A program made the translations under genes and the position numbers. This document shows positions 3,300 to 23,435 of a DNA stretch of 64,000 nt, piece after piece. Positions within the stretch are counted from its first letter, which is position 1; every line of letters starts with the position of its first letter. This DNA is from Pseudomonadota bacterium. GTDB lineage: Bacteria; Pseudomonadota; Gammaproteobacteria; Acidiferrobacterales; UBA6901. The notes beneath the pieces were generated by a model. That model did not search any database and was not told where the DNA came from. It worked only from the letters and a program-made list of their open reading frames with translations. The stretch covers positions 62,001 to 126,000 of the forward strand of contig JAJYEX010000003.1 of NCBI GenBank assembly GCA_021785515.1. Direction: 5' to 3'.

Positions 3300-5297
3300 T
3301 TAACTCCGGCGCTTGCGGCGGTACCAGCCGAGCCAGCCAATGAAGCCCAGCAGGATGAACCAATCGCCGCGCTTGAACGGATTCACCGGCGTAGCGCTGA
3401 TCGAGCATCCTGCTACCCCGGTGTCGTGTGCCTGAATCGGCGCAGACGCCGCGACCTTGCAGGTCTCGCTGGCATTCAGATTGAAATTGGCGCTGAAGCC
3501 GATAAATGGTCCATTCGCCATGGGGATGCCATTGATCCCATTGTTAGTGCCGGGCGTAGAGGCCAGGGCCCAGCTTGCTTGCGGATCGACCTCGTAACCG
3601 GATGGTCCGCCCCAGGCTGGGCCAGTCCACATGCCATTCTCGGTTCCGGGACCCGATAGCCAGGAGGCGTTCTGGTTCCAGACCTCCGCTACGTAGATGT
3701 TGTCATTCCCGTGCCAGTCGAACAGCATAAGCGCGCCGACTTGTCCGGCACCGACGTTCATGGTAAGCCATGCTGCGTTACCGTTGGGGGCAGGATTCGG
3801 GGGCTGTATGGCGCAGGCAGTGGGCATCACGCCGTCGTGCAGTTCAGTGATGGAGCACCCGGTGTTGAAGGTGTAGGAACCTGGACCGAAGACCCGGATA
3901 TCGTGCGCCGACCAGTCGAATCCGAAGAATGGCTCCGGAGTTGCGGATGCCAGTGTCATGTTGAAATTCGTCCCATTGACCGCCGTATTCGTGCTTCCGC
4001 CCCAGGTGTACACCACGTCATTCGTGCCCCCGAACGGAGTTCCTGTCGGGGTCAGCATGGTGAAATTGCCTGCTGTGTAAGGAGTCGGGGCGGGTCCGCC
4101 ACCCGTGCAGTTGGTCGTTACGGGCGCCGCCATGGTGGTGAAGCTCCAGGTATAGGGGGATGTCATCGTTTGACCACCCCCGTTCAGGACTGCTCCGCCT
4201 GCCACAGTGGCCGTATAGCCGGTGCTGTATGTCAGCGCCGTCGTCGGCGTAAAGCTGAACTGGGTGGCATACGACCCTGACGCGCTCGGGCTCACCGTTC
4301 CGGGCACCACGGCTCCGCCGGTGACGCTCAGGCTGAAGGCCGAAGCCACTGTGTTGTCTTCTACCGGCTCATCGAAAGTGATCGTGACGGGCGGGTTTGC
4401 AAGCGGGTTGGCATTGGCCGTGCCAATGGTCGGAGAGGTCTGCGAAACGGTTGGCGGGTATTGAACGCCGTTGATGGCGGTCACGGTCATGCTAGTAATG
4501 TCGAAGTTGGCGTTATACCCGCCAAACGGCCCGGCAATCATCGGATTGCCGCCGATGCCGGTTGTCGCCACCGAGTAGCCGCTCGGAACAACGGTATCGG
4601 CTACGAGCGGAACGCCGCCGCTCGGGGTGCGCCCCATGCAGCTTGCGCCGTTGGTGCCCGTACAGGCTGCCCCGATCAGCGTCGTATTCCAGGTCGTGGT
4701 CGCGACGGGTACGGGGCCAATCGGGAACCCGCCGTTCTTCATGTAGTTGCTGGCGGGCAGCACGTCACCGGTCTGGGTCTGGCCGATCATCTGACCTCCT
4801 GTCAGACCGGACCCCATCGCGTTGAACAGACCGGAGCCATCCAGCACGATCGACACCGGAATACCGTTATTGCCGTTCCAGTTGAACAGCATGTTGCCAA
4901 GGATCAGTGTTCCGCTGCCACAGCCTGTGGGCACGGCGGCTGTGCCCCCCGTGCAGGTCCCGTTGCCGATGGCCGCCAAGGTGATACCGGTCGCCGCGGC
5001 CGGGCTGGTGCCATTGAAGAAGTTGAACGGCACCAAGGTACCCGAGCCGGTTCCCGTCGCCGTATTGAAGGTCATGCTACCCGAGATGTCGGTACGGTAC
5101 CCGGACCAGCTGTTGGTTGAGTAGCTGCTGTTGTCGAGCGGTGTTCCGGTCGATGTGAGCATCGTGAAGTAGCCCGAAAAGCCGAACGTGTAAGTCGTCG
5201 CGTGGGCCGGTTCAGGCGTGGCTGCTGCACCAAGAGTTAGGGCAACCGCTGCCGCTAGCGCGCTCCTGCTCAATTTTGCCCGTTGCATGCTGTTCAT
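3300..5297 (-). CDS. Large secreted surface protein with JDVT-CTERM-like C-terminal sorting signal
   Basis: A 665-residue protein. Signal peptide 1-33 (ends A-H-A). Ectodomain A at about 35-280 is rich in Thr/Ser/Asn/Gly. A bacterial Ig-like domain of the SbsA type lies at about 283-390 (S-P-T-I-G-T-A-N-A-N, then V-T-I-T-F-D-E-P-V). A second, diverged copy of the ectodomain follows at about 405-620. The tail has G-C631-S-I, a short spacer, a hydrophobic helix (W-F-I-L-L-G-F-I-G-W-L-G-W) and Y-R-R-K-R-R-S: the Gly-Cys/helix/basic layout of JDVT-CTERM. The protease gene is next downstream, so it is the presumed substrate. Ectodomain A is closely similar to the whole mature part of the PEP-CTERM protein at 22319-23203. 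It is probably expressed from the fadL promoter, 97 bases upstream. Confidence 0.85.
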   Translation of the reverse strand: MNSMQRAKLSRSALAAAVALTLGAAATPEPAHATTYTFGFSGYFTMLTSTGTPLDNSSYSTNSWSGYRTDISGSMTFNTATGTGSGTLVPFNFFNGTSPAAATGITLAAIGNGTCTGGTAAVPTGCGSGTLILGNMLFNWNGNNGIPVSIVLDGSGLFNAMGSGLTGGQMIGQTQTGDVLPASNYMKNGGFPIGPVPVATTTWNTTLIGAACTGTNGASCMGRTPSGGVPLVADTVVPSGYSVATTGIGGNPMIAGPFGGYNANFDITSMTVTAINGVQYPPTVSQTSPTIGTANANPLANPPVTITFDEPVEDNTVASAFSLSVTGGAVVPGTVSPSASGSYATQFSFTPTTALTYSTGYTATVAGGAVLNGGGQTMTSPYTWSFTTMAAPVTTNCTGGGPAPTPYTAGNFTMLTPTGTPFGGTNDVVYTWGGSTNTAVNGTNFNMTLASATPEPFFGFDWSAHDIRVFGPGSYTFNTGCSITELHDGVMPTACAIQPPNPAPNGNAAWLTMNVGAGQVGALMLFDWHGNDNIYVAEVWNQNASWLSGPGTENGMWTGPAWGGPSGYEVDPQASWALASTPGTNNGINGIPMANGPFIGFSANFNLNASETCKVAASAPIQAHDTGVAGCSISATPVNPFKRGDWFILLGFIGWLGWYRRKRRS

Positions 5298-5394: not shown

Positions 5395-6774
5395 TCAGAA
5401 TTTGATTCCGTAGCCCACACCGACGATATCCTGCTTCATGGCAATGGATGCGTTGGTACCATTGACCACTGAGCCTGACGGTCCAAACGCTGTGGGGCCC
5501 TTAAGCGTATAGGTAAAGGCGTGCTGGTAGTCCACAGTAACCTCGCCCTCCTTGCCGCCCAGATACTTGGTCAGGGCGTCGTGCGTGACCCGGGTGAAGC
5601 CGAAGGTCAGGTGGTACTCCGTGACGCCGGGTGCCAGCATGTTGAACAGGATCTGATTGGCCGGAATGGGATTTTTGCCATAGTTGATACCCCAGCGCAG
5701 GGTTACCCGGGGATCCCACTTGTAGTCCATACCGAACTTGTAGACGGTCTGGTTGTTCCAGCCGAATCCGAGCCCCATGGGTCCGCCGAGTCCGCAGACG
5801 GCCTGAGCCTGGGCCTGATTGGATGGGCAGTATGAGGGCCAGAAGTCGGACGGATTCGCCGCATCCGGCCCCTGGTCGCCGATTGCTGCAATGCTGTGCC
5901 AGAAAATCCGTTCCACGTCCACCGCCACGTCGACCTTCGGTGTGACCTTGTAGGCCAGGCCCGCCGCGAAGTTTTGCGGAATGTCGAAGCTGCCGTTCTG
6001 GGCGAACAGATCCGAGTACCTCTTGAAGCGGGTCATGTATACCCTGGAGTTGTAGTCGAAACCCAGGTTCAACCGCTGATGGAAGTACGTGCCCAGCCAG
6101 CCCAGCCGGATGCCGGCACCGTAGGACCAGTCCGGGCCCTTGTTTGTGAGATTCGAGGCATTTTGGTTTGCGGTGAAGCCCAAGCCGGCCGGAGCGGGTC
6201 CGAAGGCCTGCAGTCCGAAGGCGCGGAACACCTGGGCAGCCAGCGCGAGTGACACGCCAAAGCTGTTATGACGGTTCCACTTGTATGCCACGCTCGGGAG
6301 CATCTGCATCTGCATCAGCGAGACGCCCGCCGGATTGCTTGCCCGTCCCTGAAAATTGAAGAAGTAATTGGATTGCTGCTGCTGGTAGCTGGTGCCGAGT
6401 CCGGCACCCACGACCGCAAAGCCGTAGGCAAGGCGGGGGCTCGCCTTGTATACCCCGCCCATGTTGGGAATCAGGAAAATCTGGCCCTGGCTGCATTCAT
6501 CTACCGGCAGGGTAGCGCTGTTGTGGTAAATGCAGCGGACCGGACGGAACAGTTCACCGCCCATGTCAAAGCGGCTGCCCACCTGAGTCATGCCCGCAGG
6601 GTTGTACGCCGGAGCGAGTCCGTCCTGCGGAAAGGCGACGCCGACGCCGCCCATGCCGTTGGCCTTCTCGCCGTAACCGATCAGAAACATGCCGTTGGTT
6701 GCGAAGGCCCTGGCCGGCAGGATAAGCCCGATCGCAACCGCTGCGAGCAGCAGTCCTTTGGAACCCGATTTCAT
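5395..6774 (-). CDS. OmpP1/FadL/TodX-family outer-membrane transporter
   Basis: A 459-residue protein with a signal peptide of about 25 residues (ends A-R-A-F-A). The mature N-terminus T-N-G-M-F-L-I-G-Y-G followed by Y-N-P-A-G-M-T is the FadL hatch/NPA signature. Barrel-like strands follow, including P-x-x-F-A-A-G-L-A-Y-K-V-T-P-K and the C-terminal Y-G-I-K-F with terminal Phe. The family takes up long-chain fatty acids or hydrophobic aromatics through the outer membrane; the substrate here is unknown. It heads a minus-strand run continuing into the JDVT-CTERM protein and MrtJ-like protease. A purine-rich ribosome binding site (AGAGGAGAGAG) precedes the ATG. A second FadL-like gene is at 38231. 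Confidence 0.88.
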   Translation of the reverse strand: MKSGSKGLLLAAVAIGLILPARAFATNGMFLIGYGEKANGMGGVGVAFPQDGLAPAYNPAGMTQVGSRFDMGGELFRPVRCIYHNSATLPVDECSQGQIFLIPNMGGVYKASPRLAYGFAVVGAGLGTSYQQQQSNYFFNFQGRASNPAGVSLMQMQMLPSVAYKWNRHNSFGVSLALAAQVFRAFGLQAFGPAPAGLGFTANQNASNLTNKGPDWSYGAGIRLGWLGTYFHQRLNLGFDYNSRVYMTRFKRYSDLFAQNGSFDIPQNFAAGLAYKVTPKVDVAVDVERIFWHSIAAIGDQGPDAANPSDFWPSYCPSNQAQAQAVCGLGGPMGLGFGWNNQTVYKFGMDYKWDPRVTLRWGINYGKNPIPANQILFNMLAPGVTEYHLTFGFTRVTHDALTKYLGGKEGEVTVDYQHAFTYTLKGPTAFGPSGSVVNGTNASIAMKQDIVGVGYGIKF

Positions 6775-7734: not shown

Positions 7735-9648
7735 ATGGCTGACACCGATCCAAAGGTGCTTGCCCGGAAGCAGCAAGCGTTTGCCCTGTTCCATGCCGGA
7801 CGTCTTGCCGAGGCTCGGGATCTTTTGGACCGGCTTTGCCAGACCGGAATTGCTGATGCGCAGGTTTGGTACTGTCTTGGAATTGCGAACGGTCGGCTTG
7901 GCCACGTGGAGCAGGTGGAGCATTGCCTGCGCCAGGCGCTCGGTCTTGACCCGGGATTCAATGAAGCCGCTCTGCGCCTTGGGGAAATGCTCGTCTATGT
8001 GGGCAGATTTGGCGACGCGATCGAGGTGTTCAGTCGGCTGTGCGCAGGATTGCCGCTTCACACCGAGCTCTGGGTCCGGCTGGGTCAGGCTCAGGAGGCG
8101 GCCGGACGACATGATGACGCGCTGGCATCCTATCAGCGCGTCATCGAGATCAATCCCGCCAGCGCCGGGGCCTACGCCAGCCTTGGTAATCTCAAGTATT
8201 TCCTTGGCCGCTGGGACGACGCTGTCGCCGATTACGGACAAGGCGTCGCCGCAGACCCCCGCAGCCTGAAATCCGCGCTTGGCTACCACCTGTCGTTGCC
8301 GCAGATCTACCGGGACGCCGGACATCTACGGGAATCGCGGCAGCGCTATCAGGACGGCCTCGATCGGATCATCTCGTGCAGCGCTGGATTTCGCACGCTC
8401 CCGACGCTGATCGATGAGCTGCAGTGGAGCAACGGATTTTATCTTGCCTACCAGGGTCTGGACGACCGGGCGCTGCAGGAGCGCTTTGGCGGCTTCTTTA
8501 CCGACATGGCCCGGTCCGCATTGCCGCAATTTTTCCAGCCGGTTTCACAGCGGCCGTTGGCCGGCCGCCGCCTGCGCGTCGGCTATGCATCGCACTTTTT
8601 TCACCGCCATACCGTTTCGCAATATTTCAGCGGCTGGATCGAAGGCGCTGACCGGGACCGTTTCGAGACCGTGGTCTATCACATCAATCCGATTCCGGAT
8701 GAAACCAGCCAGCGGCTGGCGGCCGCCTGCGACCAGTACCGCGCCCTGAGCGGGTCGATAGCCGCGATCGCCAGCGCCATCAAGAACGACCAGTTGGACG
8801 TGCTCGTTTATCCGGCCATCGGAATGTATCCGAAGGAGATGTGGCTGGCCGCATTGCGGTTGGCGCCGGTCCAGTGCGCTGCATGGGGCCATCCCGTGAC
8901 CACCGGCCTGCCCAACGTTGACTATTTTCTGTCGGCAGACGCCATGGAGCCTGACTCCGGTGCACGGCACTACAGCGAGAAGCTGATCAAATTGGAAGGT
9001 ATAGGGGTGTGTTGTGAACAACCCAGCTGGACGAGCGACGCCACGCGAACGCAGCTGGGTCTGCCGGAGGACCGCAGACTTTATCTTTGCCCGCAGTCAC
9101 TGTTCAAGATCCACGTCGATACGGATGACCTGCTTGCGGGAATTGCGACGCGTGACCCACGTGCGCTGATTCTGTTTTTTGAGGATTACAAGGCACCGGT
9201 AAATGAGGCTTTCCGGCAGCGGATGAGGCGCGTATTTGATGCGCACGGACTCGACGTCGATAACTGCCTGCGCTTCCTCCCCCGCATGGGGCACGATGCC
9301 TATCTTGGAGTAAACCGGGTGGCCGACGTGATGCTCGACACCCCGCATTGGTCCGGGGGGCGTACGTCGATGGACGCGTTTGCGGCCGGTTTGCCGGTGG
9401 TTACCCTGCCGGGCCAGTTCAGCCGGGGGCGTCAGACTTACGGCATGCTGCGTGAAATCGGCCTGACCGAACTGATTGTGCGCGACCGCGGAGACTACAT
9501 TGAGCGCGCTGTCGCTGTGGCCAGTGACCACGGGCTGCGCGGGAGGCTATCGGCTCAAATCCGCGAGCGGGCGCCAGGCAGAATATTTTCGAACCAGCGG
9601 GCCGTCCGATCCCTGGAGGAATTTCTCAAGTCGCCAACGAAACTGTGA
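7735..9648 (+). CDS. TPR protein with divergent OGT-type glycosyltransferase domain
   Basis: A 637-residue cytoplasmic protein without signal peptide. The first 200 residues are TPR-like helical repeats (A-L-G-L-D-P-G-F-N-E-A-A-L-R-L-G and V-I-E-I-N-P-A-S-A-G-A-Y-A-S-L-G). From about residue 275 it has the GT-B fold of GT41 enzymes: R-L-R-V-G-Y-A-S-H-F-F-H-R-H-T-V with the conserved His, A-P-V-Q-C-A-x-W-G-H-P-V-T-T-G, L-C-P-Q-S-L-F-K, and V-V-T-L-P-G-x-F-S-R-G-R-Q near the nucleotide-sugar site. It would transfer a sugar from a UDP (or similar) donor to protein or glycan. The G-H-P-V-T motif puts it with the gene at 12127 and apart from the canonical OGTs at 19496 and 25426. Confidence 0.85.
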   Translation: MADTDPKVLARKQQAFALFHAGRLAEARDLLDRLCQTGIADAQVWYCLGIANGRLGHVEQVEHCLRQALGLDPGFNEAALRLGEMLVYVGRFGDAIEVFSRLCAGLPLHTELWVRLGQAQEAAGRHDDALASYQRVIEINPASAGAYASLGNLKYFLGRWDDAVADYGQGVAADPRSLKSALGYHLSLPQIYRDAGHLRESRQRYQDGLDRIISCSAGFRTLPTLIDELQWSNGFYLAYQGLDDRALQERFGGFFTDMARSALPQFFQPVSQRPLAGRRLRVGYASHFFHRHTVSQYFSGWIEGADRDRFETVVYHINPIPDETSQRLAAACDQYRALSGSIAAIASAIKNDQLDVLVYPAIGMYPKEMWLAALRLAPVQCAAWGHPVTTGLPNVDYFLSADAMEPDSGARHYSEKLIKLEGIGVCCEQPSWTSDATRTQLGLPEDRRLYLCPQSLFKIHVDTDDLLAGIATRDPRALILFFEDYKAPVNEAFRQRMRRVFDAHGLDVDNCLRFLPRMGHDAYLGVNRVADVMLDTPHWSGGRTSMDAFAAGLPVVTLPGQFSRGRQTYGMLREIGLTELIVRDRGDYIERAVAVASDHGLRGRLSAQIRERAPGRIFSNQRAVRSLEEFLKSPTKL

Positions 9649-9880
9649 ATTCAGGCGATGGACGTGTCCGATCGCAACCGACAGTGGCCAGGGCGGCATC
9701 GAACGGATTGTCCCAGTTCACGGTGTAATCTCGTGATGTTGCAAGGGAGTGCAATCCCGCAGTTATGGGCCGTCTTGCTCTGTGCGGTATCGGTGGATTT
9801 TCGTGGTATTCATGGGGCAAACTGGATAGGCAAGCGCAACGACAACCGGTTTTGCGCCAGTGTTCGTGGTGTCCTTAAAT

Positions 9881-12073
9881 ATGGCTGACAAGCAAGAACT
9901 TCTCGCCCTTTTGGGTGCCGGTTGCCTGAAGGAGGCCAGAGAGCTGGGCGTGACGCTGTGCGCGCAGTCGCCGGAAGACACCGAGGTATGGTTTTTGCTG
10001 GCCGGAGTTCAGGCCCAGCTCGGGGATATGGACGAAGTCATCCGTTGCTGCCGGCAGGTAGTGACCCTCGATCCGGGCAACAGTGCCGCGCGGTTTAACC
10101 TCAGCGTCGCACTACAGATGCGTCGATCCTTCAAAGAGGCGGCGGAGGGTTATCGCGGGTTGCTCGCAATCCAGCCCGATACGGTTCCGGTGCTCGCCAA
10201 CCTGGGGCTGGTGCTGCGCGAACTGGGCGATCTGGAGGAGGCGAACCGCTATTGTCGCAGGGCGCTGGAACTTCATCCTGATCTTCCGGAGGTCCGGAAT
10301 ACTCTGGGCCTGCTGTTCATGGATCAGGGCGAGTACGGGCAGGCGATCGACTGGTTTCGCCAGGCAGTGACCTCGCGCCCGGGGTACGCGGAGGCGCACT
10401 TCAATCTCGGGCTCTGCCGGCAACGGACGGGGTCCAACTTCGAGGCGCACGATTGTTTCCGGGCAGCGATCAAATTCCGGCCGGATTATTTCGAGGCCCA
10501 TTGCAGTCTTGCAGGCGTGCTGGTCGCGCTCGGCAAGGTACCGGATGCCGTGCTCTGTTACGAGCGGGCGATCCGTATCCGGCCCGACGCAGCGCAGGTA
10601 CATCGGGATCTGGGGGCCCTGCTTGCGTCCCAGCGCCGCTGGAACGAGGCGATACCCCACTACCGGCGCGCCGTCGAACTCAAGCCCGATTTCGCTGACG
10701 CCTGCTATGAGCTCGGCAACGCTCTGCTGGACGCAGATCCCGACCCGCGCAATATCAGGGAGGCGTCGGAGTGGTTTTCGCGGGCCTTGAGACACAAGCC
10801 TGAATCGGTCGAGATCCATCTGAGTCTGGCGCTCACCTTGACGGATCTGGGGCGGGTCTCGGAAGCCGAGACGCACTACCGGCGGGCGCTCGAGCTCAAG
10901 CCCGATACTGTTCTCGCCACTGCGGGCTTGGCCAGTCTCCTGGAGCATAACGGCGATTTCGAGCAAGCCTTTGCGCTGGTCAAGCCGATGGTCGATGCCG
11001 GGACCGACAATCTTTACATCGTGCTGGCCTATGCTGCGCTCGCGGGGCGGTTCGACTGTCGTGCCGAGGCGTCAACACGTCTGGTAAAAATGCTGCAACA
11101 GCCGCGCGATGTGCAGCAGCAGGCGGATGGCCATTTCGCCCTGGGGAAGCTGTACGATGAGATGCAGGACTATCCGCAGGCCTTCGAGCATTACCGGCGG
11201 GCCAATTCCTTTGCCCGCATGCCGTTTGATGAGTCGCAGTACCGGCGGGATTTTGATTCACTGATTGCCACCTTCGCTCCCGGGCGCATGCGACGCCGGG
11301 CGCGCGCGTCCAACCGTTCCAAGCGGCCGGTGTTTATCGTCGGGATGCCTCGATCGGGAACGAGTCTGACGGAACAGATTCTCGCCAGTCATCCTGTGGT
11401 CTATGGCGCAGGAGAGCTGCCGGATATCACAGACATCGCGCGCGGGTTCCCGGCGAAAATAGGTAGCGCCAAGCCCTATCCGCATTGTTACGATGACCTG
11501 ACGCCCCGCAATTGCGACATCATGGCGCAGCGTTATCTGGACCGTCTGACGGGTCTGTCGAGCGACGCCGAGCGTGTCGTAGACAAGATGCCGCACAACT
11601 TTTTGTTTCTGGGGCTGATCGACATCCTGTTCCCGGGCGCGCGGGTTATCCACTGCCTGCGTGATCCGATCGATACCTGTCTGTCGATCTATTTTCAGCC
11701 CTTTAACGCGAATTTCAAGAAGCTTCACCCCTACGCCAGTGATCTGCGGAGTCTTGGCCGGTACTACCGGCAGTATATGCGCCTGATGGATCACTGGAGA
11801 CGCGTCATGCGGATCCCCATGCTGGAACTGCGCTACGAGGAACTCGTGGCGGACCAGGAGGCGATGAGCCGGAAGCTTGTGGAATTCTGCGAGCTGGACT
11901 GGGATGACCGGTGCCTGCGCTTTCATGAAACGGCCCGTCTGGTCAAAACAGCAAGCTATGATCAGGTGCGCCGCCCCATGTACCGGAAATCCGTAGCGCG
12001 CTGGAAGCGATACGAGCAGTTCCTGGGGCCTCTGACGGAGGCCCTGGAAATCGACGCCGCCTCACGGTCGTGA
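9881..12073 (+). CDS. TPR protein with PAPS-dependent sulfotransferase domain
   Basis: A 730-residue protein. The ATG at 9881 is chosen because it gives M-A-D-K-Q-E-L-L, matching the M-S-D-K-Q-Q start of the paralogues; a GTG at 9860 is less likely. Residues 1 to about 410 form roughly ten TPR repeats. The sulfotransferase domain has the 5'-phosphosulfate loop F-I-V-G-M-P-R-S-G-T-S-L at about 481-495 and the 3'-phosphate motif R-V-I-H-C-L-R-D-P-I-D-T at about 585-597, as in the Sulfotransfer_3 family. It would move sulfate from PAPS to a protein Tyr/Ser or a sugar. It is followed after 53 bases by a TPR-glycosyltransferase; the same pairing recurs at 17331/19496. Confidence 0.88.
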   Translation: MADKQELLALLGAGCLKEARELGVTLCAQSPEDTEVWFLLAGVQAQLGDMDEVIRCCRQVVTLDPGNSAARFNLSVALQMRRSFKEAAEGYRGLLAIQPDTVPVLANLGLVLRELGDLEEANRYCRRALELHPDLPEVRNTLGLLFMDQGEYGQAIDWFRQAVTSRPGYAEAHFNLGLCRQRTGSNFEAHDCFRAAIKFRPDYFEAHCSLAGVLVALGKVPDAVLCYERAIRIRPDAAQVHRDLGALLASQRRWNEAIPHYRRAVELKPDFADACYELGNALLDADPDPRNIREASEWFSRALRHKPESVEIHLSLALTLTDLGRVSEAETHYRRALELKPDTVLATAGLASLLEHNGDFEQAFALVKPMVDAGTDNLYIVLAYAALAGRFDCRAEASTRLVKMLQQPRDVQQQADGHFALGKLYDEMQDYPQAFEHYRRANSFARMPFDESQYRRDFDSLIATFAPGRMRRRARASNRSKRPVFIVGMPRSGTSLTEQILASHPVVYGAGELPDITDIARGFPAKIGSAKPYPHCYDDLTPRNCDIMAQRYLDRLTGLSSDAERVVDKMPHNFLFLGLIDILFPGARVIHCLRDPIDTCLSIYFQPFNANFKKLHPYASDLRSLGRYYRQYMRLMDHWRRVMRIPMLELRYEELVADQEAMSRKLVEFCELDWDDRCLRFHETARLVKTASYDQVRRPMYRKSVARWKRYEQFLGPLTEALEIDAASRS

Positions 12074-12126
12074 CCGGTTGCCGGCGCACAGGACGTATTC
12101 GATGAGGACCGAAAGAGTTTTGCGGC

Positions 12127-14415
12127 ATGTCCGATAAGCAGCAGGTTCTCGCCCTTTTGCACCGCAACGAACCCCGGGAAGCGCGGAAACTGTGCGCAGC
12201 GGTCTGCGCGCGTGACCCCACGGACGCCGAAGCCTGGTTTCTGCTCGGCGGTATTTGCGGGCAGCTCGGCGATTACAAGGAGGCCGAGAGCTGCTGCCGG
12301 CGCGTTCTTGCCATGGCTCCGGGCATGGCGGTCGTTCATTACAATCTGGGCGTTGCCTTGCTGAATCAGGGCCGGACCAAGGAAGCAGTCGGCAGTTTCG
12401 AGGAGGCACTGAAACTCAAACCGGATTTTGCGGAAGCACATCATGATCTTGCGAACGCGTTGCAGCTCGAGAACCGTATCGATGCGGCAGAAGCCAGCTA
12501 TGCAACGGCCATCGCCATCAGGCCATCCTTCGCGGAGGCGCACAACAATCTCGGGCGCCTGCTGCAGGGGCAGGGAAAACTCCCCGCGGCGATCCACTGT
12601 TTCCGCCATGCTGTGGCGTCACGGCCAGACAACGCAGTACTGCATTTCAATCTGGGAAACGCGCTGTGGGAGCATCGATTATTTGAAGAGGCGCTGGGGA
12701 GCTACCGCATGGCGATCCGGATCAACGCCGGATTTACGGAGGCCCACCGGAATCTTGCATCCGTGCTGCTGGCGCTGGGAAGGCGGGATGAAGCGTTTTT
12801 GACCTATCAGGCAGCGGTTCGTGGCAACCCTGATTCGGCGGACTTGCACATGGCTCTTGCCGACTTTTTCTATACCGGAGGGCGGCTCGACGAGGCAGTA
12901 AGGGAGTGTGAAGCGGTCCTGAGACTCGACAGTGGCGCGGTTCAGGCATACCGACGCCTTGCCGGCATATGCTACGAGCGCGGGGAGGCTGCGCTCGCGG
13001 CTGAATATTACGGGAGGCTGGCCGGGTTTCCTCATGAAGATGGGGCCAGAATTCAGCTGGCCACCATTCTTCCGTTGATTGTGCCAGACAAAAAAGCCGT
13101 CGACACGTTGCGCGATTCCCAGAGCCGCAGCATGGACGCGTTGCTGGATGAAGATCTCCAGGTCGCGGACCCGGTGCGCGAGCTCGCCTATACGAATTTC
13201 TTTCTGGCCTACCATGGAAGAAATGACAGGGAATTGCAGACAAAGCTCGCACGGCTGTATCTACGCGCCTGTCCCTCGCTGACCTATACCGCGGCGCATT
13301 GCCGGCAGCCAGAGCAGCGGATCCGGCGCGCGAAGATAAGGGTCGGATTTCTGTCTCGCTTCTTCCGGAATCATAGTATCGGCAGGACGTCCAAAGGGCT
13401 CATCGCGCTGTTCTCGCGAGATCTGTTCGAGGTGTTTGTCATTTTTCTCGATGCACCCCGGGATGAGACCGGACAATTCATCGAGCGCCATGCCGACCGA
13501 TCCATCGTGCTTCCGGCAGATCTGGCGACAGCGCGCGAGCGTATTGCCGAACAGGAGCTGGATATCCTGTTCTATCAGGACATCGGCATGGACTCCTTCA
13601 CGTCCCTGCTCGCCATGGCGCGTCTGGCGCCCGTCCAGTGCGCGTCGTTCGGCCATCCGGTGACATCGGGGATTCCGACAATCGACTATTACATCTCGAC
13701 AGAGGACTGGGAGCCGCCGGATGCTGACCAGCACTACTCTGAAAAGTTGATCCGGCTGCGGAACGTCGCTTCGGTGGCGTACTACTACAAGCCGGAAGTT
13801 CCCGCCTCCCTGAAAGGCAGGAGTTACTTCGGCCTGAATGAAGAGGATCACATTTACCTCTGTCCGCAGACACTGTTCAAGTTTCATCCGGATCTTGACG
13901 ACGTGCTTTCGGGAATTCTTCGTGCCGACCCCAGGGCTGTGATTGTCCTGATCGAGGGGGTTCACAAACCCTGGGGAGAGCAGCTTAGAACTCGCTTCAG
14001 GGCGACGATTCCGGACCAATGGGAAAGAATCCTATTTCTGCCGCAGCAGCGCGGTGGCGATTTCATCAACCTGATTGCGGTGGCGGACGTCATGCTCGAT
14101 ACCGTGCATTTTTGCGGGTTCAATACGACGCTGGAAGCGTTTGCCGTAGGGACGCCGGTGGTGACGCTCCCCGGGCGGTTCATGCGCGGGCGGCACACGG
14201 CAAGTTTTTACAAAAGACTCGGGATTGCGGACTGCGTTGCGCACACGAGTGAAGAATACATAGATATTGCAGTGCGCTTCGGGACGGATCCGGATTACCG
14301 GTCGCAGATCGGGAGCCGGATCCTGGCGGCCAGCGACGCCATCTGGGAAGACATCACGGTTGTGAGGGAATTTGAGAGATGTTTCAGTGAGCTGTTTCCC
14401 GGGGGCGGCGGCTAA
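12127..14415 (+). CDS. TPR protein with divergent OGT-type glycosyltransferase domain
   Basis: A 762-residue protein starting M-S-D-K-Q-Q-V-L. TPR repeats cover about 1-300 with clear consensus (A-L-K-L-K-P-D-F-A-E-A-H-H-D-L-A-N-A-L). The GT41-like catalytic region starts at about 402 with K-I-R-V-G-F-L-S-R-F-F-R-N-H-S-I and continues through A-P-V-Q-C-A-S-F-G-H-P-V-T-S-G, L-C-P-Q-T-L-F-K-F-H-P and V-V-T-L-P-G-R-F-M-R-G-R-H. It shares the G-H-P-V-T and R-G-R-H/Q features with the 7735 gene. Its N-terminus is very like those of the two TPR-sulfotransferases, which implies domain shuffling. It runs convergently towards galE with only about 70 bases between. Confidence 0.87.
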   Translation: MSDKQQVLALLHRNEPREARKLCAAVCARDPTDAEAWFLLGGICGQLGDYKEAESCCRRVLAMAPGMAVVHYNLGVALLNQGRTKEAVGSFEEALKLKPDFAEAHHDLANALQLENRIDAAEASYATAIAIRPSFAEAHNNLGRLLQGQGKLPAAIHCFRHAVASRPDNAVLHFNLGNALWEHRLFEEALGSYRMAIRINAGFTEAHRNLASVLLALGRRDEAFLTYQAAVRGNPDSADLHMALADFFYTGGRLDEAVRECEAVLRLDSGAVQAYRRLAGICYERGEAALAAEYYGRLAGFPHEDGARIQLATILPLIVPDKKAVDTLRDSQSRSMDALLDEDLQVADPVRELAYTNFFLAYHGRNDRELQTKLARLYLRACPSLTYTAAHCRQPEQRIRRAKIRVGFLSRFFRNHSIGRTSKGLIALFSRDLFEVFVIFLDAPRDETGQFIERHADRSIVLPADLATARERIAEQELDILFYQDIGMDSFTSLLAMARLAPVQCASFGHPVTSGIPTIDYYISTEDWEPPDADQHYSEKLIRLRNVASVAYYYKPEVPASLKGRSYFGLNEEDHIYLCPQTLFKFHPDLDDVLSGILRADPRAVIVLIEGVHKPWGEQLRTRFRATIPDQWERILFLPQQRGGDFINLIAVADVMLDTVHFCGFNTTLEAFAVGTPVVTLPGRFMRGRHTASFYKRLGIADCVAHTSEEYIDIAVRFGTDPDYRSQIGSRILAASDAIWEDITVVREFERCFSELFPGGGG

Positions 14416-14487
14416 TCCCTATGCACGCCCATGCGCGTACGCGGGACAGGGAGGCATCGGCAGCCGGGACCGCCAGGCGCATGGGGG

Positions 14488-15471
14488 TCATCGTCCGTGC
14501 TCACGCCTGTGCCAGGCCCACGCAGTTTTTATAATCGAATCGAGATCCTCGTAACGCGGCCGCCAGCCGAGATCCCGCCGGATTCGGGAGGAATCGGCGA
14601 TCAGGACCGCCGGATCGCCGGGGCGGCGGGCAGCGGCAGCGGCCGGGATAGGGTGTCCTGAAATGCGCCGGGCTGTGTCTATGACCTCGCGCACCGAATA
14701 ACCCCTGCTGTTGCCCACGTTGTAGACCATGTTTTCGCTGTGTTGCATCAGCGAGCGCAATGCCAGGAGGTGCGCCTGGGCGAGATCGCTGACGTGCACG
14801 TAATCCCGCACGCAGGTTCCGTCGACAGTCGGGTAGTCAGTGCCCAAAATCTCGATTTCCGCCCGTAACCCGGCCGCCACCTGCAATAGCAGCGGAATGA
14901 GATGGGTTTCCGGCCGGTGCCGCTCGCCCAGTGTTCCGGAAATATCGGCGCCAGCAGCATTGAAATAGCGTAGCGAGATGTAGCGCAGCCCGTGAGCCAC
15001 CGCGCAGTCCCTAAGTAGATGCTCCACGGCGAGCTTGGTTTCGCCGTACGGATTGGCAGGGTGGCAGGGATGATCTTCCATGATCGGGGTGTGTTCCGGC
15101 TCGCCGTAAACCGCAGCAGTCGAGGAAAAAATGAGACGCACGACGTTATGCCGGATCATCGCATCGAGAAGCTCAACGGTGCGGGCCAGGTTGTTGCGGT
15201 AATAGGGGAGGGGCTGCCTGACAGACTCTCCCGCCAGCGAACAGGCAGCGAAATGCATTACCACATCAAAACGGTGCCGGGAAAACAGGGTCCGCAACAG
15301 CGCCGGATCCCCCATATCGCCCTCGACGAACTCACCGCCCGGCAGGAGTTCGCGATGGCCGCGGCTCAGGTTGTCGAGCGTGACGACACCGTAACCGGCA
15401 GCGAGCAGCTCCTTGACCATGTGCAAGCCGATATAACCGGCGCCGCCTATCACCAGCACGTTTGTCGTCAT
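14488..15471 (-). CDS. galE: UDP-glucose 4-epimerase
   Basis: A 327-residue short-chain dehydrogenase/reductase of the extended type. The start chosen gives M-T-T-N-V-L-V-I-G-G-A-G-Y-I-G, placing the NAD-binding G-x-x-G-x-x-G at the N-terminus as usual; an upstream in-frame start would add 35 unlikely residues. It also has S-S-T-A-A-V-Y-G and the catalytic Y-x-x-x-K in N-P-Y-G-E-T-K. F-N-A-A-G-A and the G-T-C-V-R-D-Y-V-H-V stretch are typical of GalE. It interconverts UDP-Glc/UDP-Gal (or the GlcNAc forms) and so supplies donors for exopolysaccharide or for the neighbouring GT41-type enzymes. It is oriented against them. Confidence 0.93.
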   Translation of the reverse strand: MTTNVLVIGGAGYIGLHMVKELLAAGYGVVTLDNLSRGHRELLPGGEFVEGDMGDPALLRTLFSRHRFDVVMHFAACSLAGESVRQPLPYYRNNLARTVELLDAMIRHNVVRLIFSSTAAVYGEPEHTPIMEDHPCHPANPYGETKLAVEHLLRDCAVAHGLRYISLRYFNAAGADISGTLGERHRPETHLIPLLLQVAAGLRAEIEILGTDYPTVDGTCVRDYVHVSDLAQAHLLALRSLMQHSENMVYNVGNSRGYSVREVIDTARRISGHPIPAAAAARRPGDPAVLIADSSRIRRDLGWRPRYEDLDSIIKTAWAWHRREHGR

Positions 15472-16050
15472 TGTGCGGACCTCGAAGGGTTGCTTTCTGC
15501 GACGGGTTGAACACCACGATCGGGCGCCGATTTTGATGGGATCACCGCAAGTACCGGGCAGCTTGCGGCGAGCCAAATGAAGGATTTTTTAAGGAGTCTT
15601 GTTTCCGTGATGCGATCTCCACTGTTTGCGGCGAGCTGACACCTGGTCTTGGCGACGATCGCCGGATAACAAAATATCACACCGGCAGGGCCTAATGTAG
15701 GCCATCGGGCACAGCAATTTCGGTGCATTGCCCAAGATGAGAGCCGGTGCCTGATGGCGCAATGACCCATCGCGGAATGGCGCACTTGCGGCGATTCCCC
15801 GTGGAGATTCATCTGGGGAATGATCATGTGTCTGCCGGTCCGTGTGCCCGAGAGACGGCCTTACCGCCGAAAGACCCATCATACGGCGAATGCCGTAGGA
15901 TCCGAGTGCATTCGCTTTTCGCACGATAAGCCGTAGCGCGGTGCAATGAGGTGGGCGCGCCTTCCCGGGTAGAGGGGACGTCTGCTTCCGGATGTTCGGG
16001 TAATTTTCTGCCGTGAGATCTGTCTTTCGTGCTTGTGGCCGCTTACGCGC
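15472..16050. other. Intergenic region, no gene seen
   Basis: About 580 bases upstream of galE, downstream of the minus-strand gene ending at 16051. No open frame with recognisable protein character and no obvious hairpin with a T-run. Presumably it carries the galE promoter. Confidence 0.45.
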
Positions 16051-16839
16051 TCATCTGTTTTTTACGTACGGAACCGTCGATCTGAAGGGCGGGCGTTTAA
16101 GGTTTGGCAAGCCCGGAATGGTCCGTCCGGCAAGCCGAAGATAACTGGGATCCCCGATGGTTGCGGCATAACACAGCCAATAGTTCATCGCATAAATCTC
16201 GGCCGGCGTATACGAAATCTGGTCATCATGGCTATTGAGCGGGTCAGCCTCGACGGCTTCCCGATTCGGGACGCTCGGAAAATCCCGGTCGAACTGTTCC
16301 TCAAGAGCGCGCCATTCGTTCCGATAAGTCATAGGCGCGACGCCCGGTTTCATGCGGCCGAAGCCCGGGTAAGCGTTAGAGTATTCGGAACAGCCGCGTT
16401 TGAGCGTAATCGCGATTTCAGGAGAGATCGCGTCTCCCACCGCTTTCCGGATGATCTTGCGCATCTCCCGACTTTCTTCGATCCCCCGGCAGAATACAAA
16501 ACCCTTATATTCCCCAGAACAGTCATCCCGTGTTTCGACCATGCATTTTCTGGCGTTGTTGCCCGGCAGCACGATCTCCTCGAAGACCATCAGCAGCTTG
16601 AAGAGCTCCAGCACGCTGCGGGGTTCTACCAGGATCTTGTAGCATTCAAAACAGTACTGCGGGATGGCGCGGTATCGTTCGAATACCTTCAGGTGCCGGA
16701 TGCAGCCGCCAGGATGGGCGTCTTTCCACAGGTTGGTCGGTATACCGCGGTAGACCTGAAGCGAGCCGAAACCACCAAATACGCCTTCAGAAGCGAGTGC
16801 GGGCTGAAATCGCGTGATGACTTGTTCGTCCGGGATCAT
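16051..16839 (-). CDS. Conserved-looking hypothetical protein with several Cys residues
   Basis: A 262-residue protein starting M-I-P-D-E-Q-V-I; the frame is open 17 codons further but that extension is basic and unlikely. No signal peptide or membrane helix. Codon use and composition look real. Cys residues cluster as C-I-R-H-L-K, Y-C-F-E-C-Y-K, R-K-C-M-V-E-T, D-D-C-S-G and F-V-F-C-R-G, and the C-terminal half is aromatic-rich (Y-A-M-N-Y-W-L-C-Y-A). The C-x-x-C in Y-C-F-E-C-Y could bind metal. I do not recognise the family. It lies inside the glycosyltransferase/sulfotransferase array, so a role with those enzymes or their client is possible but unproven. Confidence 0.6.
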   Translation of the reverse strand: MIPDEQVITRFQPALASEGVFGGFGSLQVYRGIPTNLWKDAHPGGCIRHLKVFERYRAIPQYCFECYKILVEPRSVLELFKLLMVFEEIVLPGNNARKCMVETRDDCSGEYKGFVFCRGIEESREMRKIIRKAVGDAISPEIAITLKRGCSEYSNAYPGFGRMKPGVAPMTYRNEWRALEEQFDRDFPSVPNREAVEADPLNSHDDQISYTPAEIYAMNYWLCYAATIGDPSYLRLAGRTIPGLPNLKRPPFRSTVPYVKNR

Positions 16840-17330
16840 CGGTGACTTCCTCGTGCGCAATGGCCAGTATGCTGGCCTGGAAATTCTCATGGACGCGGCC
16901 AGCTTGCGCGTCGGCGCAACGGCGTTGAAGAGGACAAATGTCTGCGTAATCCAGTGTACGAACCGCAGGTGCGGTCATTCGTCAAAACCTCGGAACCTAC
17001 GCTCGCTACTAGCGTATCTTAAATCCCATTTTCCTGGAAAAATTGGAGCCCGCTTAAGGCCCCAAGGCCGATTCCCCCTCATCTGTCGCGGACTCGGGCA
17101 GCCTCTCATTTACACGCGCCAGATTGCAGCATGGACGCGGTCCAAGCCGCCATAGCGGCTCGCTGCAGCGCGGCCATTCCAATCATCAGTTTCTGGGGCT
17201 GTGATGGATTTATGGTCCGGTTATCGGGCAATATTATAGAGGGTCCGTCGGCACTTGTGGGTTGAACGCCGGTTCCGTCATCCGCCGCCGCAGACGGAAG
17301 GCTATTACGCGGCAATGGAATTTCTCGAGC
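16840..17330. other. Divergent intergenic region, no gene seen
   Basis: About 490 bases between the minus-strand hypothetical gene and the second TPR-sulfotransferase. The right part is locally AT-rich (about 17215-17245) and may hold the sulfotransferase promoter. No RNA gene or convincing open frame. Confidence 0.45.
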
Positions 17331-19493
17331 ATGTCCGATAAGCAACAGATCCTCAATCTCCTGCACGGCAACCGGATACCCGAGGCACGAAAGCTGTGCG
17401 CGACGCTTTGCGCGCGCAATGGAACCGATGCCGAGGCCTGGTTTCTGCTTGCCGGGATTTGCGCGCAACTCGGCGAACTGGACGAGGTGGTCCGCTGTTG
17501 CCGCCAAGTCGTCGCGATCGAGCCCGGGAACGTCGGTGCCTGGTACAACCTTGGGGTGGCCCTGCAGAGCCGCGGGAAGTCGGGGGAGGCAGCAGGATCC
17601 TATCGCCGGCTGCTCGAGATTCAGCCTCGCCATGCCATGGCTCTGGCAAACTTGGCATTGGCGTTGCGGGAGCTGGGCCAGCGGGATGAAGCCATGGAGT
17701 GCTGCGCGCGGGCTATTGCGCTCCAGCCTGATCTGGCCGAGGCGCACAATACGCGCGGGCTGCTGTTCAGGGATCGGGGAGCTTCCGATAATGCTATCCA
17801 GTGCTTTCAGCGGGCGTTCACACTTCGGCCCGGTTACGCGGAAGCCTGTTTCAATATGGGGCTGTGCTATTTATCGGGCAACGATTCCGGCCGGGCTGAA
17901 ACCTGTTTCCGGGACGCAATCCGGATTAATCCCGGCTACGCCGAGGCTCATCGCGGGCTGGGTGGCGTGCTGGCTGCGTCGCAAAGACCTGATGAGGCGG
18001 TATTGAGTTTCCGGCGAGCCATAGAGCTCCGGCCGCAGTGGGCGGAGGTGCATGCGGAGCTGGCTGGCATCCTCATCTCCCAGCGCAAATGGGACGAAGG
18101 CATCTCACATTACCGGCACGCGGTTCGCATCAAACCGGAGTTTGGGGAGGCGCATAACAATCTCGGCAATGCCCTGCTGGATCGGGATCAGGGGCCGCGA
18201 TACGGGGAAGAGGCGGTGGACTGTTTCCGTCAGGCTTTACGTTGGATACCGGAGGCTCCGCAGATCCACCTCAACCTGGCCGCGGCCTTGTGTGACCTGG
18301 GGCGGGACCGGGAGGCGCAGGCGAGCTACCGCCGGGTCCTGGAGCTCAAACCCCGGGATCCGCTCGCTACCGCCGCGCTTGCCAACCTTCTGGAGAGGGT
18401 GGGAGATTTCGATTCAGCCATGGGTCTGGTGCAGCCGCTGATCGATACCGGGCATGATGAGGTGCAGCTGGTGCTGAGCCATGCGGCTTTGTTACGGCAT
18501 CAGAACCGGCGCGAGGAGGCCATTGCGCTGCTGGAGCACGCTCTAGAACGGCCCATGGAAGACAAGCACCGGGTGGATGCGCACTTTGCCCTGGGACGGC
18601 TGCATGATGAAACTGGAAACTATCATCAGGCGTTTCATCATTATCATGAGGGAAATGCGCTGGATGCCAAGGAATTTGACGAACCTGCAGACCGCCGGGG
18701 GTTTGATGCCCTGATCGCTGCATTTTCTCCCGAGCGAATCAATCGCCGGCCACGTGCGTCGAATCGGTCCAGGCTGCCCGTCTTCATCGTGGGTATGCCG
18801 CGTTCGGGAACAAGTCTTGTTGAACAGATCCTGGCCAGCCATCCCTTGGTTCACGGTGCCGGAGAGCTCACTGCAATCTTTGACATTTCATCGGAGCTCC
18901 CGTCCGTCCTCGGCACAACGCTATCCTATCCGCAGTGCCTGGATCAGTGTACGTGCCAGGGGCTCGACCGGGTGGCCATGCGGCATCTCGACTATCTCAG
19001 CCGCTTGGGGGGCGGAGCGGCGCGCGTCACCGATAAGATGCCCCACAATTTCATGGCTCTCGGGCTCATCGATCTGCTGTTTCCGGGTGCGCGCGTGATC
19101 CACTGCATGCGGGATCCGGTGGACAACTGCCTGTCGATTTATTTTCAGCGCTTCAATGATTTTCACGGATATGCCCGTGACCTTGGGTCGCTCGGTCGCC
19201 ACTACGGACAATACCGGCGCCTGATGGCGCACTGGAAGTCGGTGCTTCGGATTCCGGTCATGGACCTGCAGTATGAGAGTCTGGTGGAAGACCAGGAGGC
19301 GGTCAGTCGCAGCATGGTGGAGTTCTGTGGTTTGGAATGGGATGAGCGCTGTCTGCATTTCTACGAATCGCGCCGATTCGTCACCACGGCGAGCTACGAT
19401 CAGGTGCGCCGTCCGATCTATCGCAAATCGGTGGCACGCTGGAAGCGTTATGAGCGGCATCTCGAACCGTTGCTGCGCGCGCTGCAGGACTAG
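17331..19493 (+). CDS. TPR protein with PAPS-dependent sulfotransferase domain
   Basis: A 720-residue protein, a paralogue of the gene at 9881. The start gives M-S-D-K-Q-Q-I-L-N-L-L. About ten TPR units cover residues 1-400 (A-I-A-L-Q-P-D-L-A-E-A-H-N-T-R-G-L-L-F and similar). The sulfotransferase motifs are F-I-V-G-M-P-R-S-G-T-S-L at about 480-492 and R-V-I-H-C-M-R-D-P-V-D-N-C-L-S at about 587-601. The C-terminal S-Y-D-Q-V-R-R-P-I-Y-R-K-S-V-A-R-W-K-R-Y, also in the paralogue, is typical of bacterial Sulfotransfer_3 proteins. The stop codon is 2 bases before the next gene, a TPR-OGT, so the two are almost certainly co-translated and may act on one substrate. Confidence 0.88.
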   Translation: MSDKQQILNLLHGNRIPEARKLCATLCARNGTDAEAWFLLAGICAQLGELDEVVRCCRQVVAIEPGNVGAWYNLGVALQSRGKSGEAAGSYRRLLEIQPRHAMALANLALALRELGQRDEAMECCARAIALQPDLAEAHNTRGLLFRDRGASDNAIQCFQRAFTLRPGYAEACFNMGLCYLSGNDSGRAETCFRDAIRINPGYAEAHRGLGGVLAASQRPDEAVLSFRRAIELRPQWAEVHAELAGILISQRKWDEGISHYRHAVRIKPEFGEAHNNLGNALLDRDQGPRYGEEAVDCFRQALRWIPEAPQIHLNLAAALCDLGRDREAQASYRRVLELKPRDPLATAALANLLERVGDFDSAMGLVQPLIDTGHDEVQLVLSHAALLRHQNRREEAIALLEHALERPMEDKHRVDAHFALGRLHDETGNYHQAFHHYHEGNALDAKEFDEPADRRGFDALIAAFSPERINRRPRASNRSRLPVFIVGMPRSGTSLVEQILASHPLVHGAGELTAIFDISSELPSVLGTTLSYPQCLDQCTCQGLDRVAMRHLDYLSRLGGGAARVTDKMPHNFMALGLIDLLFPGARVIHCMRDPVDNCLSIYFQRFNDFHGYARDLGSLGRHYGQYRRLMAHWKSVLRIPVMDLQYESLVEDQEAVSRSMVEFCGLEWDERCLHFYESRRFVTTASYDQVRRPIYRKSVARWKRYERHLEPLLRALQD

Positions 19494-19495
19494 GC

Positions 19496-22318: not shown

Positions 22319-23203
22319 ATGAAAAAAGTAGCAATCAAAGGCGCAGTGAAGAAGACCGCCCTGTGCCTGGCCGTAACGGCTGCCTTGGGCGTCTCGGGTG
22401 CCGCCAACGCGGAGGTGGTCAACTTCAACTGGAGCGGCCTGTTCACGATGTTGACGTCAGCCGGAACCCCGCTGGTCAACAGCAGTGCCTCGACCAACAG
22501 CTGGTCAGGAACCCGCACTGACATTTCCGGCACCATGAGCTTTAACACGGCGACGGGAACCGGATCGGGCACTCTGGTGCCATTCAATTTCTTCAATGGC
22601 AGCACCCCGGCCGCGGCAACCGGCATTAACCTGCAGGCCATCGGCAACGGCACCGGCGGCGCCGGAACGTTGGTGCTGGGCAACATGCTGTTCAACTGGA
22701 ACGGCAACAACGGCATTCCGGTATCGATCGTGCTGGATGGCTCCGGTCTGTTCGACGCGATGAATTCCGGTCTGACAGTCGGTCAGACGATCGGCCAGAC
22801 CCAGACCGGTGACGTGCTGCCCGCCAGCAACTACATGAAGGCTGGCAAGGAGCCGATTGGCGTCGTACCCGTCGCGACCACGACCTGGAACACCACACTG
22901 GTCGGGCCGGCCTGCACCGGCACCAACGGCGCAAGCTGCATGGGGCGCAGCCCGAGCGGCGGCCTTCCGCTCATAGCCGATACCGTTGTTCCGAGCGGCT
23001 ACTCGGTGGCGACAACCGGCATCGGCGGCAATCCGATGATTGCCGGGCCGTTTGGCGGATATAACGCCAACTTCGACATCACCAGCATGACGGTCAGCAG
23101 TATCGTCAATCCGGTGCCGGTACCGGCCGCTGTCTGGCTGCTGGGATCAGGCCTGCTGGGTCTGGTGGGTGTCGCCCGGCGTAAGCGTTCGGACCAGAGC
23201 TGA
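22319..23203 (+). CDS. PEP-CTERM protein sharing its ectodomain with the JDVT-CTERM protein
   Basis: A 294-residue protein. The ATG at 22319 is preceded by GGAGGAG; an in-frame GTG 12 bases upstream overlaps that site and is rejected. Signal peptide 1-31 (ends A-N-A). The mature domain is Thr/Asn/Gly-rich. The C-terminal sorting signal is V-P-V-P-A-A-V-W-L-L-G-S-G-L-L-G-L then R-R-K-R, a PEP-CTERM variant cut by an exosortase not in this window. The mature region aligns almost residue for residue with residues 35-280 of the protein encoded at 3300-5297 (shared stretches include T-G-S-G-T-L-V-P-F-N-F-F-N-G and N-W-N-G-N-N-G-I-P-V-S-I-V-L-D-G-S-G-L-F). It follows a sigma-54 promoter and precedes a strong terminator, so it is monocistronic. 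Confidence 0.9.
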   Translation: MKKVAIKGAVKKTALCLAVTAALGVSGAANAEVVNFNWSGLFTMLTSAGTPLVNSSASTNSWSGTRTDISGTMSFNTATGTGSGTLVPFNFFNGSTPAAATGINLQAIGNGTGGAGTLVLGNMLFNWNGNNGIPVSIVLDGSGLFDAMNSGLTVGQTIGQTQTGDVLPASNYMKAGKEPIGVVPVATTTWNTTLVGPACTGTNGASCMGRSPSGGLPLIADTVVPSGYSVATTGIGGNPMIAGPFGGYNANFDITSMTVSSIVNPVPVPAAVWLLGSGLLGLVGVARRKRSDQS

Positions 23204-23251
23204 TCTCGCTCCTAGCAGGAGATTGAGTTCCAGGTTCAAGCTGAGCAGCAC

Positions 23252-23284
23252 ACAGGCGGGACGGTCTTCGTCCCGCCTGTTTTC
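23252..23284 (+). terminator. Rho-independent terminator after the PEP-CTERM gene
   Basis: A perfect 12-bp stem (ACAGGCGGGACG / CGTCCCGCCTGT) with a 5-base loop (GTCTT), followed by T residues, 49 bases after the stop codon. Confidence 0.88.
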
Positions 23285-23435
23285 CTCAGGCTACAGCGCA
23301 GGCTAGAAGAAAATCCCCAGGACCACAGGTCTGGAAGGGATCACCTGCCAGGATGTTGCCGTCACGAGAGTCGTTGCATGACAGGCGGGGTTTACTTGTG
23401 CTGTCAGGCAAAGGATTCCGGAAGGAGGGGTACGT

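Follow-up and report, generated by a model that had tools for sequence, protein, structure and literature searches.

Two genes with a common domain

The window, by which we mean the whole stretch of 64,000 nucleotides analysed here, holds two genes coding for surface proteins that share a domain and end in unrelated C-terminal tails (Table 1). The genome to which it belongs is called the window genome; the others are designated by codes (G018, G041, G045, G047, G050, G054, G055, etc.).

Table 1 Positions in the window of the two domain genes, of their parts and of the adjoining genes.
Feature	Position	Strand	Basis
Long surface protein of 665 aa, made up of a signal peptide, two domain copies separated by Big_5, and a Gly-Cys tail	3300..5297	-	ORF
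Signal peptide region of the long protein, ~residues 1-33, of the long type	5199..5297	-	Judged by eye; identity to other long proteins
Domain copy 1, residues 35-276	4470..5195	-	Identity of 84-85% to the short protein (22319-23203)
Longest DNA tract identical to the PEP gene, 85 nt	4519..4603	-	Matches 22974-23058
Second identical DNA tract, 52 nt	4737..4788	-	Matches 22789-22840
Ig-like Big_5, residues 281-388	4134..4457	-	PF13205, 3.7e-16
Domain copy 2, diverged, ~residues 394-616	3450..4118	-	HMM matches at 394-578 and 584-616
Gly-Cys tail: GCSISATPVNPFKRGDW, hydrophobic stretch, RRKRR	3303..3419	-	Alignment of Gly-Cys tails
Myxosortase-family (MrtJ-like) intramembrane protease, 192 aa	2603..3181	-	NF033192 56.3 bits, Mrt_core 55.5 bits, both below cut-off
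Short protein of 294 aa with a PEP-CTERM tail of VPLPA type and one domain copy; putative donor of the converted tracts	22319..23203	+	ORF, TIGR03370
VPLPA-CTERM tail, residues 266-290	23114..23188	+	TIGR03370
OmpP1/FadL-like outer-membrane protein adjoining the Gly-Cys-tailed protein	5395..6774	-	PF03349, 1.7e-15

The sequence-only reading of this DNA held that residues 35-280 of the long protein are nearly the same as the mature PEP-CTERM protein, and the alignments bear this out: the first domain copy is 85% identical to the short protein over the domain in one alignment and 84% in another, and the two stretches that it quoted (T-G-S-G-T-L-V-P-F-N-F-F and P-M-I-A-G-P-F-G-G-Y-N-A-N-F) are both common to the two proteins in a local alignment. 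The nucleotide identity is 79% (630/795, counted over the whole local alignment and including the poorly matching signal peptides). The second copy in the long protein is 32% identical to the short protein, while a third copy in the same genome, located on another contig and carrying a PEP-type tail (C14:3713-4567), has an identity of 72%. The earlier reading was silent on both of these copies, the diverged one after Big_5 and the one on C14, as well as on the missed JDVT-CTERM model described below.

In the proteins scanned, no Pfam or NCBIfam model scores above its cut-off over the shared domain, and of the NCBIfam models, floc_PepA (NF033554) alone matches across the short protein, with 21.5 bits for a cut-off of 80. 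The name "choice-of-anchor" is used for surface domains occurring with several unrelated anchoring tails. The models of this kind gave no match in the long and short proteins of the window or in four further short proteins scanned; choice-of-anchor U does match the long proteins of G138 and G140, at two places per protein, and the best-scoring places (residues 1007-1053 and 911-945, respectively) lie outside the domain copies. The predicted structure of the whole long protein is poor (mean pLDDT 45.8, pTM 0.30), and the prediction for the domain alone (pLDDT 59.5, pTM 0.62) shows nine strands. A Foldseek search of the PDB with the predicted domain gave no match at E ≤ 0.001 (best 0.085), and a profile search of PDB sequences reached an E value of 0.33 at best. 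The best VIA-align Z score, 7.5, is in a range deemed uninformative (2f1t, rmsd 4.1 over 135 aligned; 6czh, rmsd 3.1 over 100 aligned). PHROGs gave no match for either protein.

Tails and their predicted processing enzymes

The C-terminus of the short protein, VPVPAAVWLLGSGLLGLVGVARRKR, scores 32.4 bits in TIGR03370 (cut-off 25.35), so that the exosortase-type signal attributed to this copy is indeed present, and is of the VPLPA-CTERM kind; in the Pfam PEP-CTERM model the score is 17.1 bits, under the cut-off of 20.7. The only PF09721 match of the window genome is an exosortase passing the XrtD model TIGR04152 (537 bits, cut-off 400), which is coded on the same contig, approximately 33 kb ahead of the first position of the window. 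The short protein is predicted to be a substrate of this single exosortase. XrtD is found above cut-off in 13 of the 15 genomes examined, the exceptions being G018, where the Gly-Cys form is the only form of the domain found, and G057, which has a PEP-tailed copy and in which neither XrtD nor the protease described below was found (2.0 Mb assembly, completeness not given). TIGR03370 was run on the domain copies of five of the 13 genomes with PEP-type tails, the remaining tails being judged by eye. The cut-off was passed by copies from the window genome, G138, G194 and G041; one copy from G140 scored 21.4 bits, and another relative from G140 gave no match at E ≤ 0.05.

The long protein has its Gly-Cys motif at residues 630-631, followed by a hydrophobic stretch that begins near residue 645 and by RRKRR. 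A gene for a CPBP/Rce1-type protease (PF02517, 3.1e-16) lies directly downstream, in agreement with the earlier assignment of a Gly-Cys/helix/basic tail with an intramembrane protease of its own. The motif EEWFFR and the residues H131, H167 and N171, which we take to be the catalytic residues of a CPBP protease, are conserved in all six homologues compared. The labels JDVT-CTERM and MrtJ given by the sequence-only reading can be kept only in the form "-like", since both tail and protease resemble this system but miss the curated cut-offs. The protease scores 56.3 bits in NF033192 (MrtJ, cut-off 75) and 55.5 in Mrt_core (cut-off 100). The tail has no match to the JDVT-CTERM model NF033191 (E ≤ 1 for the whole protein, E ≤ 10 for the tail alone) and scores 11.1 bits in the MYXO-CTERM model TIGR03901 (cut-off 20). 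Six of the seven aligned Gly-Cys tails were run against NF033191, where the best one, from G041, reached 13.3 bits versus a cut-off of 27. In G045, a close homologue of the protease, likewise below the NF033192 cut-off with 57.8 bits, is found about 2 kb from a target that passes JDVT-CTERM (39.1 bits, cut-off 27).

A model of the Gly-Cys tail has one match in the window genome at E ≤ 1, which suits a protease that has a substrate of its own, and the protease and this one target are adjacent genes. Further, weaker matches to the tail model (E 4e-7 to 7e-10) are found in G041, G045 and G047. Judged from these sequences, the tail and the protease probably work like the JDVT/MrtJ pair, as a diverged branch of it and not as a member by the curated thresholds; they form a coherent group just under the curated models. 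The long protein is the predicted substrate of the adjoining myxosortase-family protease.

Gene neighbourhood

The two domain genes are opposite in orientation and 2-17 kb apart in the window genome, G054, G050 and G138, and in the first three of these TPR proteins or their blastp homologues are coded between them. The run of TPR proteins in the window (7735-27495) is located between and beside both domain genes. Five of these proteins were scanned, of which three have a GT41 glycosyltransferase and two a sulfotransferase domain; the TPR, GT41 and sulfotransferase proteins may modify surface proteins. According to a blastp comparison of neighbours, a FadL/OmpP1 homologue adjoins the Gly-Cys- or JDVT-tailed target in each of the eight genomes of the order that have the full protease (window 5395-6774 and loci L054, L055, L056, L058, L059, L062/L077 and L078). 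The FadL-like protein of the window has a weak match to the PorV family, below cut-off (25.6 bits of 90), PorV being a shuttle of type IX secretion. On the other side, the window contains genes resembling those for export in PEP-CTERM systems (TIGR03027, 138.8 bits for a cut-off of 180; TIGR03016, 44.7 bits for a cut-off of 90.85). Directly after the short gene there is a second protein with a VPxPA-like tail (23436-24104), with 38.1 bits in floc_PepA (cut-off 80), and a protein of similar appearance is coded on contig C6.

Distribution of the domain, the protease and the tails

The domain was found in seven of 57 genomes of the order (E ≤ 0.001) and in 10 of the 369 class genomes that were sampled (E ≤ 1e-6), and several of the matches span nearly the whole model. 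It is thus not the widespread low-complexity repeat that was named as the finding which would deprive the specific swap of meaning. The full protease (E ≤ 7.7e-78) is present in eight of the 57 genomes of the order, and six more have weak matches only (E 1.5e-6 to 7e-4). All seven genomes with the domain are among these eight, the eighth being G045, which has the protease without the domain (E ≤ 0.001). In the class, five of the 369 genomes have the protease (E ≤ 1e-20); it occurs together with the domain in four (G000, G041, G050 and G140), and in G421 the protease is matched and the domain is not (E ≤ 1e-6).

The tails found on the domain are VPLPA-CTERM, Gly-Cys, dockerin type I (PF00404, 6.4e-11) and another membrane tail. 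Gly-Cys tails occur in nine genomes (the window genome, G018, G041, G047, G050, G054, G055, G138 and G140) and PEP-type tails, on short proteins, in 13 (the window genome, G041, G047, G050, G054, G057, G138, G140, G145, G179, G194, G293 and G365). Both are found together in seven (the window genome, G041, G047, G050, G054, G138 and G140). The tails of G058 are outside these counts, one copy being cut by the contig end and a weaker second copy lying on contig C36. In G055, a small domain fragment that looks decayed was observed (L063:1447-1773); all other matches in this genome are within the long protein.

In the comparison of tails that had been proposed as a check, the two types coexist in seven genomes, but G194 adds a dockerin and another membrane tail, and tails therefore vary by lineage. 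The long forms in this genome (L154-L156) end in dockerin type I or in the other, unclassified membrane tail, and of seven class genomes it is the only one without an Mrt_core match (E ≤ 0.001). Between lineages, the tail that is used may follow the machinery at hand. G138, where a Gly-Cys tail is found without a match to the protease profile, fits this idea poorly. In G140 (L118:5701-6862), a gene for a myxosortase-type protease adjoins a domain relative with a PEP-type tail and none with a Gly-Cys tail. The Mrt_core matches in G138, G145, G179, G293 and G365 say little, since Mrt_core also matches eight of 14 control genomes; none of these five genomes was reported by the protease profile at E ≤ 1e-20.

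Tracts of probable gene conversion

A codon alignment of 13 sequences, which omits the G041 copies, G047_short3 and L022, is the basis of the tract, permutation, diagnostic-site, tree and signal-peptide tests. The longest run of agreement between the long and the short gene of the window comprises 46 polymorphic sites, with 85 identical nucleotides, and synonymous change is seen in 6 of 90 codons in the tract versus 34 of 84 outside (P = 7e-8). The corresponding genes of G050, which belongs to another family, share 263 identical bases, with synonymous change in 0 of 82 codons in the tract versus 61 of 114 outside (P = 4e-19); windows of 20 codons are 37-83% identical before this tract and 60% after it. 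In nine control pairs, no synonymous drop is found at the same columns (P > 0.1). Synonymous change is thus depressed in the tracts and not at the same columns of other pairs, which is the pattern by which we recognise gene conversion. Among 10,000 shuffles, none attained the longest agreeing run of either pair (P ≤ 0.0001; Bonferroni values of 0.003 for 28 pairs and 0.001 for 10 pairs), and two further pairs, G047_short2/G047_long and BP4_short/G055_long, gave Bonferroni values of 0.014, which passes the 0.05 threshold, and 0.050. A misassembly is unlikely as the source of the G050 tract, because that genome consists of one contig of 3,958,814 bases. A tree uniting the first domains of the six long proteins in one clade is rejected (p-AU 7e-62), and one uniting four of them (the window genome, G054, G055 and G018) is not (p-AU 0.21). 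Since the tracts of the window genome are interrupted by a few differences and this four-member clade is not rejected, the case for this genome rests on the tracts.

We consider it very likely that the domain is common to two surface proteins which are old and anchored separately, and that gene conversion between their genes has re-copied it, and the copying seems to have happened independently in the family to which G050 belongs. The homogenisation is sporadic, since the long and short copies are not especially close to each other in G054 (69%), G047 (56-60%), G140 (33-34%) or G194 (44-52%). In G138, the copies resemble one another most (60% identity, versus 44% or less to the 14 other sequences compared), without a recent tract. 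In G041, a Gly-Cys-tailed protein and a PEP-tailed one, coded about 29 kb apart, have 80% identity over 183 residues, and no recent tract was seen between the two genes. The same genome has a gene with two tandem domain copies that are 99% identical over 537 bases (L062:12706-14106), which we read as a fresh internal duplication or conversion.

The PEP-tailed gene is likely to be the donor in both the window genome and G050, because the diagnostic residues in the tracts are of the short type. For the window genome, these are residues at which the long proteins of G054 and G055 agree with each other and differ from three agreeing short ones. In the tract, 9 of 16 are of the short type and 2 of the long type; with G018 as a third long reference, five diagnostic residues are left, 3 of the short type and 0 of the long. 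The signal peptide of the same protein has 6 long-type residues and 1 short-type (n = 14), and the segment before the tract is mixed, with 3 of each (n = 8, without the G018 reference). The diagnostic sites for G050 are based on one long and two short sequences from a single other genome, and assign the tract of its long gene to the short type (12 short, 4 long, n = 20), together with the segment before it (32 short, 1 long, n = 45); the signal peptide is mixed (3 short, 4 long, n = 16), and the segment after the tract is of neither type (0 and 0, n = 4).

What moved and what stayed

A source other than the paralogue in the same cell, that is, a domain gained from a relative by horizontal transfer, is very unlikely. 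Sampling is sparse, with the domain in seven of 57 genomes of the order, and one scan of genome contigs gave seven loci, which would suit such a gain; however, among the sequences compared, the nearest relative of each converted domain is a paralogue in the same genome, about 17 kb away in the window genome and about 10 kb away in G050, and we have rejected this explanation for that reason.

The sequence-only reading suggested a recent swap of tails, in which the gene was duplicated and one copy gained the other sorting tail. A domain that is 84-85% identical next to unrelated tails does look like the product of such an event, but the remainder of the long protein does not. The long proteins of the window genome, G018, G047, G050, G054 and G055 can be aligned beyond the first domain, with 45-82% identity in the Ig domain, 49-82% in the second domain and 35-88% in the tail, and each of the six has the protease directly downstream. 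Pfam finds Big_5 in the three of these that were scanned (the window genome, G055 and G050). Big_5, the second domain and the tail are thus found again in the long proteins of further genera and families. In seven genomes, a long form with a Gly-Cys tail is present together with a short one with a PEP-type tail, and the identity between the two proteins of the window falls at both ends of the domain, not just at the tail. The signal peptides, too, match the tail types. That of the long protein is 44-53% identical to those of the long proteins of G054, G055 and G018, versus 27% to that of the short protein of the window, 36-42% to those of five of the six other short proteins and 33% to that of G050_short; that of the short protein is 65-71% identical to those of three short proteins. 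A recent tail swap is contradicted by this conserved architecture and most unlikely: it is the first domain that has moved.

Strong purifying selection keeping old paralogues alike without recombination is highly improbable, being possible for short conserved motifs outside the tracts, such as the stretches around GNMLFNWNGNNGIPVSIV that most copies of domain 1 retain, and contradicted for the tracts themselves, where synonymous sites are nearly unchanged too (0/82 and 6/90) and where nine other pairs show no drop.

Gene conversion between the two genes would then have acted on the following arrangement. The short protein, made of a signal peptide, the domain and the VPLPA-CTERM tail, would be sorted by XrtD. 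The long one, made of a signal peptide, the domain, the Ig domain, the diverged domain and the Gly-Cys tail, would be handled by the adjoining protease, the Cys of the tail being lipidated before the protease cuts, as passages of PMC11980579 propose for MrtX. The first domain of the long gene would have been partly overwritten by the PEP-tailed copy. The view that a single cell sends the same domain to its surface by two unrelated anchoring routes stands as far as tails and enzymes are concerned, which the sequences support, while anchoring and cleavage are predictions.

The two ectodomains could be kept alike because both bind a common partner, or bind to one another, each at its own distance from the cell. 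We infer that the domain has a single binding partner, perhaps the domain itself, and is displayed in two settings: a three-domain protein anchored to the cell and a single-domain protein sorted by the exosortase. The fact that the ectodomain was copied in two families points to a possible need for the two proteins to remain compatible. More speculative, and in our view rather doubtful, is the idea that the ectodomains are matched by design, an exosortase-sorted protein on the matrix side and a lipid-anchored one on the cell side pairing via the domain and being kept matched by gene conversion from the PEP-tailed to the Gly-Cys-tailed gene; if true, this would amount to concerted evolution spanning two protein-sorting machines that are unrelated. 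For the question why several C-terminal sorting systems coexist in one cell and whether they deliver to different places, the two proteins are a natural matched pair, with nearly the same ectodomain on an XrtD-type and a myxosortase-type tail, so that the effect of the tail can be separated with little confounding by the protein.

Comparison with known systems

The half of the locus belonging to the VPLPA-CTERM/XrtD system (TIGR03370, TIGR04152) passes both curated cut-offs and presents nothing unusual. The other half resembles JDVT-CTERM/MrtJ (NF033191, NF033192) in pairing a protease gene with one adjacent Gly-Cys-tailed target, and in occurring in a group of gammaproteobacteria; passages of PMC11980579 describe pairs of MrtJ and a single target as sporadic in beta- and gammaproteobacteria. 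It differs in that the protease stays at 56.3 of 75 bits and the tail is without a match, the JDVT target of G045 having ...FDP... where the tail in the window has ...RxDW.... PepA, the flocculation-associated PEP-CTERM protein (NF033554), has a weak match to nearly the whole short protein (and 21.2 bits for the short protein of G138), but the score is far under the 80-bit cut-off and stems in part from the shared PEP-type tail.

The use of different sorting systems within a single protein family has been reported: passages of PMC3237569 describe families whose members bear GlyGly-CTERM, LPXTG or PEP-CTERM tails. In those passages, the alternatives are found in different genomes, whereas here both are present in one genome and joined by recombination. 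In the parts of the literature covered by our searches, no paper joining PEP-CTERM, exosortase and gene conversion was found, nor was there one on this among the matches listed in wider searches. The domain is therefore of a known kind with an unusual mode of evolution, in that families with several tails have a precedent (PMC3237569, in the passages cited) and a precedent for the gene conversion was not found in that literature. The choice-of-anchor domains of NCBIfam (e.g. NF041766, choice-of-anchor U) are likewise single surface domains with several unrelated tails; the present case differs from them in having two tails in one genome and a domain exchanged between the genes by gene conversion. 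On the grounds of the sequences compared, the shared domain is a new domain of the choice-of-anchor kind, and its gene conversion across sorting systems is the unusual part.
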